Source: Methylocaldum marinum
GTDB taxonomy: Bacteria; Pseudomonadota; Gammaproteobacteria; Methylococcales; Methylococcaceae
Assembly (NCBI RefSeq): GCF_003584645.1
Contig: NZ_AP017928.1
Location: forward strand, 5,593,501 to 5,657,500
Reading direction: 5' to 3'
DNA: 64,000 bases
Shown here piece by piece: positions 58,029-61,789 of the stretch; positions within the stretch are counted from its first letter, which is position 1; every line of letters starts with the position of its first letter. Position numbers and translations under genes: made by a program. Under the pieces are notes generated by a model that saw only the letters and a program-made list of their open reading frames with translations, was not told where the DNA came from and did not search any database.

Positions 58029-59102
58029 ATGGATTTCATCCTTATCGACGGTTCCTACGGTGAAGGCGGCGGCCAGATTCTGAGGACAACGCTATGCCTG
58101 TCCGCGATTACCGGCCGTGCGGTACACATCGAAAACATCCGCGCAAGGCGGAAAAAGCCGGGATTGGCTGCCCAGCATCTGACCGCGGTGTTCGCGGCCG
58201 CCAAGCTTTGCGATGCCGAGCTGAACGGCGCCGAATTGGGTTCCAGGACTTTGCGGTTCGCGCCGCGGATAAAGCCGAGGGCCGGCGAATACCGTTTCGA
58301 CGTGGCGGAAGCGCGGCGAGGGGGCAGTGCCGGGGCGGTATCGCTGGTGCTTCAGACGGTGTTGCTGCCTCTGGCCTTGGCCGAAGGCGATTCCTGTGTC
58401 GTGGCGCGGGGAGGAACGCACGTGCCGCTGAGCCCGTCGTTCGATTATCTCCACGATGTATGGCTGCCCTATTTGAAGCTTATGGGCGTCGGTGCCGAAC
58501 TCAGCCTCGAACGAACCGGCTGGTATCCGATCGGAAAAGGGGAGGTCAGGCTGGAAATCAAGGGAATACCATCGGGAGGGCGACGGAAATTACACCCTCT
58601 GAAACTGGAGGACAGAGGCGAGCTCATCGAAGTCTTCGGCCGCGGACTCGCCGCCAATCTTCCCGAGCACGTGTCGCAGCGCATGGCGCAGCGTGCGGAG
58701 ACTCTGCTGCGGCGCAAGAACATGTCCTGCCGTATCGATGCGGTGCCGGTCCGCGCCGCCTGTCCCGGCGCCGGAACTTTTCTGGTTGCTCGCTACGAAC
58801 GCGCCCTGGCCGGATTCGGTGCCCTGGGCGAGCGCGGCAAACCGGCGGAACAGGTTGCCGAGGACGCCTGCGCGAAGCTGCTGGAGCACGATCATACGAG
58901 CGCGGCGGTGGACGAACATCTGGCGGATCAGTTGGTACTGCCTTGCGCCCTGGCCGACGGCGAGTCGGGTTTCACGGTCGATCCGATGACCCGGCATCTC
59001 GCGACCAATGCCTGGGTAGTGGAGCGTTTCGGTATCGCCGAAGTCGAACTCATATCGACCTCGGCTACAGCCGGATTGGTGCGAGTCTTTCCGAGTCCGT
59101 GA
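58029..59102 (+). CDS. rtcA: RNA 3'-terminal phosphate cyclase
   Basis: This 357-residue enzyme converts RNA 3'-phosphate to 2',3'-cyclic phosphate with ATP. The family start DGSYGEGGGQILRTTLCLSA and RARRKKPGLAAQHLT are clear. The adenylylated histidine is His323 in MTRHLATNAWVVERF. It is followed after 9 bases by polX on the same strand. The RNA ligase RtcB, its usual operon partner in E. coli, is not in the window. Confidence 0.95.
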   Translation: MDFILIDGSYGEGGGQILRTTLCLSAITGRAVHIENIRARRKKPGLAAQHLTAVFAAAKLCDAELNGAELGSRTLRFAPRIKPRAGEYRFDVAEARRGGSAGAVSLVLQTVLLPLALAEGDSCVVARGGTHVPLSPSFDYLHDVWLPYLKLMGVGAELSLERTGWYPIGKGEVRLEIKGIPSGGRRKLHPLKLEDRGELIEVFGRGLAANLPEHVSQRMAQRAETLLRRKNMSCRIDAVPVRAACPGAGTFLVARYERALAGFGALGERGKPAEQVAEDACAKLLEHDHTSAAVDEHLADQLVLPCALADGESGFTVDPMTRHLATNAWVVERFGIAEVELISTSATAGLVRVFPSP

Positions 59103-59111
59103 GCATTCGCC

Positions 59112-60827
59112 ATGCCCGTACGTAACGCCGATATTGCCGCGATCTTCGAAGAAATCGCCGATCTCCTGGAAATCGACGGCGCGAACGTATTTCGGGTCCG
59201 CGCCTATCGCAATGCCGCCCGCATACTCCAGGAACTGGGCAAGGACGTACGTGCGATGGTGAAAAAGGGCGAGGATCTGACCGAATTGCCGGGCATCGGC
59301 ACCGACCTGGCCGCCAAGATCAAGGGAATCGTCGATACCGGCCATTGCAAGGCGCTGGACGAACTCCACAGGCGCTTGCCGCCCGCCATAGCGGAGCTTT
59401 TGAAAATTCCGGGCCTGGGGCCGAAGCGGGTGAGATCGCTTTATCGCGAACTCGGCATTCAGACCCTCGACCAGCTTCGGCGCGCAGTACGCGAGCATCG
59501 AATCCAGGCACTGCCCGGCTTCGGCGAGAAGACCGAAATGCACATCTCGGACGCCCTGGAAGCTCATGGCGGCGGAGCCGGGCGGTACACGCGCGTCGTT
59601 GCCGATCAATTCGCGACGCATCTGCTCGATTATCTGAAACGGGTTCCCGGCGTCGGTCGCGTGGTGATCGCCGGTAGTTACCGCCGCGCCAAGGAGACGG
59701 TGGGCGATCTCGATATCCTGGCGACGGCGGAAGCGGAAAGTCCCATCATGCAGCGTTTCGTCGACTACGAGGATGTCGCGGAGGTGGTGACGCATGGGCC
59801 CACGCGGGCCAGCGTATTGCTGCGCGGCGGACTGCAAGTGGATTTCAGGGTGGTATCGGCGGAAAACTACGGTGCGGCCCTGCATTATTTCACCGGCGGC
59901 AAGGCCCACAATATTGCCATTCGACGCCTGGGGCAGGAGCGAGGTCTCAAAATCAACGAATACGGCGTGTTTCGCGGCGACGAGCGGGTTGCGGGCGATA
60001 CCGAGGAATCGGTTTTTGCCGGCGTCGGACTGCCGTTCATCCCGCCGGAATTGCGCGAAGACCGGGGCGAGATCGAAGCGGCCAGGACAGGGCGTTTGCC
60101 GAAGCTGGTCGAGCTGGCGGACATCAAGGGCGATCTTCATGCCCATACCAAGGCGTCGGACGGCCACAACACCATTCTGGAGATGGCGGGCACGGCGAAA
60201 AGCCATGGCCTCGAATATCTTGCGATCACCGAGCACTCGCGCCGATTGACGGTGGCGCACGGTCTGGATTCGGTTCGCTTGCTCAAACAGATGGACGAAA
60301 TCGAAAGGCTGAACGACACCCTGGACGGCATCGTTCTCCTCAAGGGCATCGAGGTGGATATTCTGGAAGACGGCCGCCTGGACTTCCCTGACGAACTGCT
60401 GGGCCGGCTCGACGTCGTGGTCGGCGCGGTGCACAGCCGGTTCGACCTGCCCCGGAACAAGCAGACCGAGCGGATTCTACGGGCAATGGATCGCCCGCAT
60501 TTCAACATCCTGGCGCACCCTTCGGGACGCTTGATCGGCCGCCGCGAGCCTTACGACGTCGACATGCTGCGCGTGATCCGCAAGGCCCGGGACCGTGGCT
60601 GTTTTCTCGAACTCAACGCGAATCCGGAGCGCCTAGATCTCAGCGATGTTCAATGCAAAATAGCCAAGGAAGAGGGGGTGTTGGTCAGTCTCAATTCTGA
60701 CGGCCATAGTACCCTGGACTTCGGGAACCTGCGCTATGCCGTCGGGCAGGCCCGGCGCGGCTGGCTGGAGTCCCGTGATGTTCTGAATTCCCGTGGTCTC
60801 AACGAACTACGCCGGCTGCTTCGGTAG
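59112..60827 (+). CDS. polX: Family X DNA polymerase with PHP exonuclease domain
   Basis: The protein has 571 residues. An N-terminal Pol-beta-like domain contains helix-hairpin-helix motifs (LPGIGTDLAAKIKGIVDTG; IPGLGPKRVRSLYRELG). The palm has GSYRRAKETVGDLDILATAE (catalytic Asp pair about residues 199-201) and LQVDFRVV. The PHP domain starts near residue 337 with KGDLHAHTKASDGHN and continues with ITEHSRRL, HSRFDLP and HPSGRLIGRR. It fills short gaps in DNA and has 3'-5' exonuclease activity in characterised PolX. Coupling to rtcA suggests a shared nucleic-acid repair response. Confidence 0.95.
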   Translation: MPVRNADIAAIFEEIADLLEIDGANVFRVRAYRNAARILQELGKDVRAMVKKGEDLTELPGIGTDLAAKIKGIVDTGHCKALDELHRRLPPAIAELLKIPGLGPKRVRSLYRELGIQTLDQLRRAVREHRIQALPGFGEKTEMHISDALEAHGGGAGRYTRVVADQFATHLLDYLKRVPGVGRVVIAGSYRRAKETVGDLDILATAEAESPIMQRFVDYEDVAEVVTHGPTRASVLLRGGLQVDFRVVSAENYGAALHYFTGGKAHNIAIRRLGQERGLKINEYGVFRGDERVAGDTEESVFAGVGLPFIPPELREDRGEIEAARTGRLPKLVELADIKGDLHAHTKASDGHNTILEMAGTAKSHGLEYLAITEHSRRLTVAHGLDSVRLLKQMDEIERLNDTLDGIVLLKGIEVDILEDGRLDFPDELLGRLDVVVGAVHSRFDLPRNKQTERILRAMDRPHFNILAHPSGRLIGRREPYDVDMLRVIRKARDRGCFLELNANPERLDLSDVQCKIAKEEGVLVSLNSDGHSTLDFGNLRYAVGQARRGWLESRDVLNSRGLNELRRLLR

Positions 60828-60929
60828 GCTGTTCCGAAGCCCGGCGATGCCCTTTGGACGGCTTTGAAAAAACAAGGAACAAGCGGCTGAACTTTTATCC
60901 GCAAGCGATGTCACAAGGTTTAAGTGTCA

Positions 60930-61047
60930 GGAACGACGCGAACTACTCATCTCCTCCCTTTGAGTAGTGTCATTCACCCGGCATCCCCCCCAAGCCGGGA
61001 CTTCGCTCCGAGGTATATCCCCCCATTTGCCTCGGAGCTTTTTCTTT
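60930..61047 (+). ncRNA. Candidate small RNA: three stem-loops with C-rich loops
   Basis: Three consecutive perfect hairpins occupy the gap after polX. Hairpin 1 (60942-60968) has an 8-bp stem and loop TCTCCTCCCTT. Hairpin 2 (60977-60999) has a 6-bp stem and loop ATCCCCCCCAA. Hairpin 3 (61005-61038) has a 9-bp stem, loop TATATCCCCCCATTTG, and a following T5CT3 tract. The last is a Rho-independent terminator on the plus strand. All loops display C-rich sequence complementary to Shine-Dalgarno sites, as in C-rich-loop regulatory RNAs of other bacteria. The promoter is not identified; it may be processed from the polX 3' end. Confidence 0.6.
61005..61047 (+). terminator. Rho-independent terminator
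   Basis: The stem GCTCCGAGG/CCTCGGAGC (61005-61013 with 61030-61038) is followed by TTTTTCTTT. It ends the candidate small RNA and any polX readthrough just before the convergent engB stop. Confidence 0.8.
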
Positions 61048-61048
61048 C

Positions 61049-61666
61049 TCACGATGCATTCGGTCGAGACATTTCCAGCCAGCGGTCCAGCACGGCCCAT
61101 GCCTCTTCCAGTCCGATGCGCTTGAGCGCCGAAAGAATCTGCAAACTGAAGTTCAGCCCCTGCTGCGCTTTCAATTCGGCTTCCACTGTTCGCAGGGTCT
61201 GAAGCGCTGCCCCGCGGCTGAGTTTGTCCGCTTTGGTCAGCGCGATGTGCAGCGGCAGCTCCCAATGGCGGCACCACTCGATCATGCGGTGGTCGAACGG
61301 GGTCATGGGATGGCGTATGTCCATCACCAGAAACACCCCGCGCAAGGACCGGCGCTCGCTGAAATACCCTTCCAGGGCTTGGCGCCAGTTCTTCTGGATC
61401 GCTTCCGGTACTTGGGCATAGCCGTAGCCGGGGAGGTCGACCAAGCGCCTGTGGTCGTCCACCCGGAAAAAATTGAGCATCTGGGTGCGGCCCGGCGTCT
61501 TGCTGACGCGCGCGAGCGCCTTTTGCTGGGTGATTACATTGATCGCGCTGGATTTTCCGGCATTGGAGCGGCCTGCGAATGCGACTTCGAAGCCTTCGTC
61601 CGGCGGTGCATCGTTCACGTTCGGAGCACTCATCATGTAGCGGGTGTTTCGATAAGAGGTATTCAT
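61049..61666 (-). CDS. engB: Ribosome-biogenesis GTPase EngB/YihA
   Basis: This 205-residue essential-type GTPase acts in 50S ribosome assembly. The G1 motif is GRSNAGKSS, G3 DLPGYG and G4 TKADK. The N-terminus (MNTSYRNTRYMMSAPNVND) aligns with E. coli YihA. The ATG at 61666 is used; one two codons upstream (61672) is possible. It is divergent from the cytochrome gene, the classic engB-cytochrome c4 arrangement of gammaproteobacteria. Confidence 0.95.
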   Translation of the reverse strand: MNTSYRNTRYMMSAPNVNDAPPDEGFEVAFAGRSNAGKSSAINVITQQKALARVSKTPGRTQMLNFFRVDDHRRLVDLPGYGYAQVPEAIQKNWRQALEGYFSERRSLRGVFLVMDIRHPMTPFDHRMIEWCRHWELPLHIALTKADKLSRGAALQTLRTVEAELKAQQGLNFSLQILSALKRIGLEEAWAVLDRWLEMSRPNAS

Positions 61667-61789
61667 GAGCATCGATTCGGTAAATCTGTTGACTTTTGTA
61701 GTCTACCCGTATTTGATTTGCGCTCTAAAACGAGCCGCAGGCCGGCGTAAATTTACTTCAACTTGGTTTTTCTGAGCGAGGGGTCAATA

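Follow-up and report, generated by a model that had tools for sequence, protein, structure and literature searches.

Does the gap between a DNA polymerase gene and its convergent neighbor merely separate two coding regions, or does it house a gene for a small RNA (sRNA)? This question is raised by a locus within the 64-kb window (the whole stretch of 64,000 nucleotides that was analysed), where a polX-type DNA polymerase gene (59112–60827, plus strand; Pfam domains HHH_8, DNA_pol_B_thumb and PHP) is followed by a convergently oriented engB/ysxC GTPase gene (61049–61672, minus strand; Pfam MMR_HSR1). The gene for the RNA 3'-terminal phosphate cyclase RtcA (58029–59102) is positioned directly upstream of polX, and genes for a two-domain, c4-like cytochrome c and then for a DsbA-like protein are found beyond engB. 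A first-pass annotation had placed an undescribed sRNA candidate at 60930–61047 in this gap.

Architecture of the candidate sRNA gene

The three hairpins, C-rich loops and terminator that had been described for this region are all present in its sequence. On the plus strand, SL1 (60942–60968) comprises 8 bp and the C-rich loop TCTCCTCCCTT at 60950–60960, SL2 (60977–60999) comprises 6 bp and the C-rich loop ATCCCCCCCAA at 60983–60993, and SL3 (61005–61038) comprises 11 bp, including one G-U pair, and the C-rich loop TATCCCCCCATT at 61016–61027; together with the T-run that follows it (61039–61043, plus strand), SL3 forms an intrinsic terminator. The plus strand of the region folds with −45.5 kcal/mol (z = −5.5), an energy as low as which was reached by none of 200 shuffled sequences. 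While the hairpins were correctly located, the start of the element was not, since a 5' hairpin with GGA in its loop (GUGUC-AGGAAC-GACGC; 60924–60939, plus strand) and a sequence match to a sigma-E/AlgU-type promoter (GAACTT-N16-TCACA; 60889–60915, plus strand) precede it. We infer that transcription starts 5–8 nt 3' of the −10 element. Promoter position, a conserved block, structure and terminator delimit a candidate sRNA gene at 60920–61043 on the plus strand, with a predicted transcript of about 120–125 nt.

The minus strand folds less stably (z = −2.6), and its hairpins lack a T-run in that direction, in agreement with the earlier statement that the opposite strand has no terminator. A simple terminator scan did not report SL3 because its loop exceeds the limit of that scan (8 bases), and a sigma-70 scan found no promoter in the 58–64 kb portion of the window. 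Strong AGGAGG sites in the window had been brought forward as support for the candidate; they occur at chance density (23 seen, 26 expected) and therefore carry no weight. No Rfam family matches the window at the gathering threshold, so that the term undescribed is apt for this particular sequence but not for its kind, which is a described kind of sRNA. The 6.09 Mb source genome, to which Methylocaldum sp. 14B and a Methylococcaceae MAG are closely related, contains one copy of the sRNA gene, and a search of the available literature found no sRNA reported for the Methylocaldum-type group of methanotrophs.

Conservation of structure and gene neighborhood

A blastn search within the order yielded 14 further homologues, and the resulting 15 Methylococcales sequences, including the window copy, were used to build the covariance model R1, which represents the RNA only and leaves out the flanks. 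Three parts are conserved in the oriented alignment of these 15 sequences, namely the two promoter boxes, which are separated by a spacer that varies, a block on the 5' side (GTCNGGAACGACGC) and the hairpins. The homologues differ by loop-length indels that break reading frames; a coding role of the region is hence unlikely and was rejected. By construction, R1 scores highly on the window copy (131 bits, E 1.8e-31; contig positions 5654420–5654546, corresponding to 60920–61046 of the window). It matches 42 of 301 genomes of the order (E<1e-7), and at E≤0.01 it matches 111 of the 369 genomes sampled from the class, representing 89 of 272 genera. Three weak matches in the order (L170, L171 and L174; 22–26 bits) adjoin tRNA-like sequence and were dropped as chance hits. 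The covariance search of Methylococcales and other Gammaproteobacteria that had been proposed as a check thus recovered homologues in both order and class, and loops and stems are conserved among these relatives.

The proposed compensatory changes in the stems were also found. In 35 Methylococcales sequences, 96% of the cells are paired and 15 of 23 base pairs show compensatory change, while sliding the partners reduces pairing to 22–52%. Class-wide, all 23 pairs show compensatory change, with 426 compensatory cells compared with 113 in shuffles. Since both the order and the class alignment were fitted to the structure, the slid controls weigh most. The SL1 helix is paired in 100% of the 35 sequences and has compensatory changes in 6/6 pairs across the class; the corresponding numbers rise from 4/6 pairs in Methylococcales to 6/6 in the class for SL2, and from 9/11 to 11/11 for SL3. 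In the 5' hairpin, 98% of the cells are paired in the 35 sequences and two of five pairs show compensatory change. Its GGA loop is kept in nearly all Methylococcales homologues and possibly represents a CsrA-type site or a structural cap.

The three loops of the hairpins SL1 to SL3 remain C-rich in most matches. Their core columns are almost pure C or pyrimidine (85–100% C in the core C columns of SL2), and in the folds of 65 of 83 class matches three or more hairpin loops are C-rich. Stems vary between lineages while the C-rich loops persist, as one would predict for loops that carry the function. We also inspected the engB locus of 28 Methylococcales genomes, nearly all of them without an R1 match; f6 and f8 denote two of the family labels used here (f1–f8). 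In the f6 genomes (L209–L212), a GAACTT box is present upstream, preceded in two of them by a PolA-like C-terminal end, and the 5' hairpin and the C-rich loop of SL1 are kept. The SL2 and SL3 loops of these genomes have lost their C-runs while that of SL1 has not, suggesting that SL1 is the core pairing site. Two f8 genomes possess the promoter and two hairpins with C-containing loops, and most other f8 genomes have neither promoter nor hairpins beside engB. The sRNA gene has therefore disappeared, relocated or undergone reduction in some lineages.

The neighborhood of the gene is conserved as well, and this synteny constitutes independent evidence because R1 holds no flanking sequence. The usual gene order is polA, sRNA, convergent engB and cytochrome c4. 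A convergent engB gene lies downstream of 31 of 49 matches in the order and of 60 of 83 in the class. polA is found upstream of 12 of the 49 order matches; it occupies this position in several other Methylococcales families, and polX does so only at the four loci of the window's genus. When 1.5–1.7 kb flanks were inspected at 73 class loci, six of which were fetched with the ErsA model and not with R1, engB was present in 54, polA in 48 and both genes in 37; 70 of the 73 loci adjoin at least one of polA, engB and cytochrome c4.

Three side observations concern particular loci. Tandem arrays of two to four sRNA genes, mostly at the polA-engB locus, occur at L077/L154, L117, L149, L142 and L151; several of the copies have their own GAACTT-type promoter, and the gene has thus been locally amplified. 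The contig DYIL01000067.1 (locus L002) belongs to a MAG with the title Methyloversatilis universalis, but its polX, engB and cytochrome c4 genes resemble those of Methylocaldum (84–86% identity) and the contig falls in the genus of the window; this MAG (G077) is probably mislabelled or mixed. In the Pseudomonas-type genome G461 (locus L172), ErsA follows polA, and the next 4 kb lack engB and contain a sigma-factor-like ORF instead, so that the link to engB has been broken there.

Predicted promoter, proposed mode of action and competing explanations

The promoter site of the sRNA gene is the only match to GAACTT-N16-TCNNA in the 64-kb window (about 0.5 expected). All of the first 15 homologues carry GAACTT or GAACTC, 16 or 17 bases and TCNNA, at a short and nearly fixed distance from the conserved block. 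The strict pattern is present upstream of 80 of 132 distinct model matches and at 42 of 73 class loci, compared in each case with 0.2% of shuffled sequences; a relaxed pattern is found at 61 of 83 class matches (1.8% in shuffles). These boxes match the sigma-E/AlgU-type consensus. The source genome encodes an ECF sigma factor (rpoE) followed by RseA and RseB, and also Hfq. Because no obvious GAACTT-type site is present in the 400 bp upstream of its own rpoE gene, control of the sRNA by sigma-E is something that we infer from the sequence of the boxes.

By the comparative evidence, the predicted sRNA gene is real, a new member that is ordinary in kind. We consider it probable (roughly 0.78) that it encodes a free-standing, sigma-E-controlled, trans-acting sRNA that is a homologue, and not a mere look-alike, of the polA/engB-linked sRNAs sX13 and ErsA. 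An RpoE/AlgU-type sigma factor would transcribe it from GAACTT-N16-TCACA, as the conservation of this site suggests, and the transcript of about 120 nt would end at SL3, judging from the terminator sequence. Its three hairpins, for which covariation argues, would expose the C-rich loops; by analogy to sX13, these would bind target mRNAs by base pairing at G-rich Shine-Dalgarno sequences or at such motifs in the start region, and so block their translation. Since loops of this anti-Shine-Dalgarno type fit any strong Shine-Dalgarno sequence, a list of predicted targets that lacked conservation would amount to noise. The 5' hairpin may contribute stability or bind a protein, and the type of promoter, together with the example of ErsA, points to a role in envelope stress.

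The most serious alternative to homology is that the RNA is a convergent C-rich-loop sRNA without common descent with ErsA and sX13, whose loops alone create the cross-matches to Rfam models. When Rfam was run with lax settings, anti-hemB, ar14, 6C, Scr3202, ErsA and sX13 all aligned over one footprint, each below its cut-off; the fact that ar14, 6C and Scr3202 score too, the occurrence of C-rich or CUCC loops in other sRNA families and the low sequence identity to ErsA and sX13 are compatible with such a convergence. The agreement between Rfam models could indeed in part reflect a shared C-rich composition, but the shared locus is not explicable in this way. Orientation and the order of the three hairpins are shared in addition to the polA-engB locus, and often the promoter type too. 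Moreover, the ErsA, sX13 and anti-hemB models, run independently on the genomes of the class, identified many loci that R1 had picked as well, so that the link between these RNAs amounts to more than composition. Intermediates are recognised by several independent models; the four-copy array between polA and engB at L077, for instance, is matched not only by R1 but also by the sX13 (48.3 bits), anti-hemB (41.8 bits) and ErsA (37.1 bits) models. Conversely, R1 scores 37–39 bits on three sX13 loci above the Rfam cut-off, all of them located after polA, 40 bits on an sX13-like locus (49.5 bits by the sX13 model) and, weakly, 19 bits on a Pseudomonas-type ErsA. We therefore regard convergence as rather improbable.

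Less probable still is that the region represents the 3' UTR and terminator of polX plus a spacer against engB, the C-rich loops being either accidental or part of a processed, 3'-UTR-derived RNA. In favor of this explanation, the polX stop codon is followed after about 210 bases by a good terminator, SL3, and little space separates polX from engB. However, the sRNA has a dedicated, conserved promoter, and in relatives the gene that precedes it is polA, an amylase-like gene or yet another gene, findings that also make a mere readthrough from polX less likely; furthermore, the two upstream hairpins, which are superfluous for termination, covary and keep their C-rich loops.

Known CsrA sponges carry several GGA loops. 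A CsrA/RsmA sponge acting through the GGA loop of the 5' hairpin, which nearly all Methylococcales homologues possess, or through the GGA-bearing opposite strand, where CsrA-type sites had been suggested earlier, is very improbable and was rejected as the main function of either strand, since the expressed strand has only this single GGA loop, 5' hairpins across the class do not keep GGA, and the opposite strand folds more weakly and lacks a terminator.

Relationship to catalogued RNAs

The usual view is that sRNAs are replaced quickly in evolution, and the catalogues treat ErsA, sX13 and anti-hemB as distinct families, each confined to particular lineages. Whether the polA locus encodes sRNAs elsewhere was a question raised by the study on sX13 (PMC3771888); for about one third of the sampled gammaproteobacterial genomes the answer is yes, often with a common promoter type. 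Methanotrophs gain a candidate envelope-stress sRNA, and the R1 model can be used to annotate many genomes.

sX13 (RF02232) of the Xanthomonadaceae has three stable hairpins with C-rich loops in about 115 nt, and the window copy also has three. Experiments have shown that the C-rich loops of sX13 mediate the repression of mRNAs carrying G-rich motifs, in an Hfq-independent manner, and the sX13 gene lies downstream of polA, as does that of Spot 42 (PMC3771888) and as do many of the RNAs related to the window copy. Several of the gammaproteobacterial loci found by R1 are also found with the sX13 model. The window copy differs from sX13 in being located downstream of polX and not directly downstream of polA, and in scoring 18.2 bits by the sX13 model compared with a gathering cut-off of 50. 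The strict sigma-E-type promoter was absent from the true sX13 loci examined.

ErsA (Pseudomon-1; RF01719) shares with the window RNA the C-rich loops. It is encoded between polA and engB, and its expression is switched on by sigma-22, an envelope-stress factor (PMC8575079). The window copy adjoins engB but has polX upstream, and polA precedes other Methylococcales homologues. A Pseudomonas-type ErsA copy located after polA has a GAACTT-N17-TCATA site upstream, and the window copy likewise carries, at the sequence level, the AlgU/sigma-22-type promoter that is a feature of ErsA. Differences are that ErsA has two C-rich hairpins, the window copy three, and that the latter scores 21.4 bits (E 0.036) against a gathering cut-off of 50. 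The best Rfam score on the window belongs to anti-hemB (Burkholderia RNA 7; RF02837), with 29.1 bits (E 3.8e-5); this model covers 81 positions, and the window copy stays under its gathering cut-off of 49.5. Among 185 class genomes, 73 contain a match to this model, in many cases at polA/engB loci that R1 detects too.

The other comparisons are more distant. The ar14 or 'cuckoo' CCUCCUCCC sRNAs of Alphaproteobacteria and the 6C RNA of Actinobacteria also have repeated hairpins with C-rich loops, but the window copy reaches only 24.9 bits with ar14 (RF02344; gathering score 58.8) and 24.8 bits with 6C (RF01066; gathering score 47), and nothing points to a common locus. Spot 42 (spf; RF00021) resembles the window RNA solely in the chromosomal position beside polA (PMC3771888), and its covariance model has no match in the window up to an E-value of 10.

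The window copy combines an R1 match, three covarying C-loop hairpins and an engB/polA flank, the features by which we define a polA/engB-linked C-rich sRNA family. ErsA, sX13, possibly anti-hemB, and the Methylococcales copy look like one ancient and widespread family of this type that has been split in the databases. More tentatively, and as a scenario that we find possible but would not favor, a single sigma-E-driven C-loop sRNA may have resided in the polA-engB gap since the early Gammaproteobacteria; ErsA, sX13, the anti-hemB-type RNAs and the Methylococcales copy would be its descendants, tandem arrays would have formed in several lineages, and Spot 42 would be a remodelled enterobacterial descendant or a replacement.
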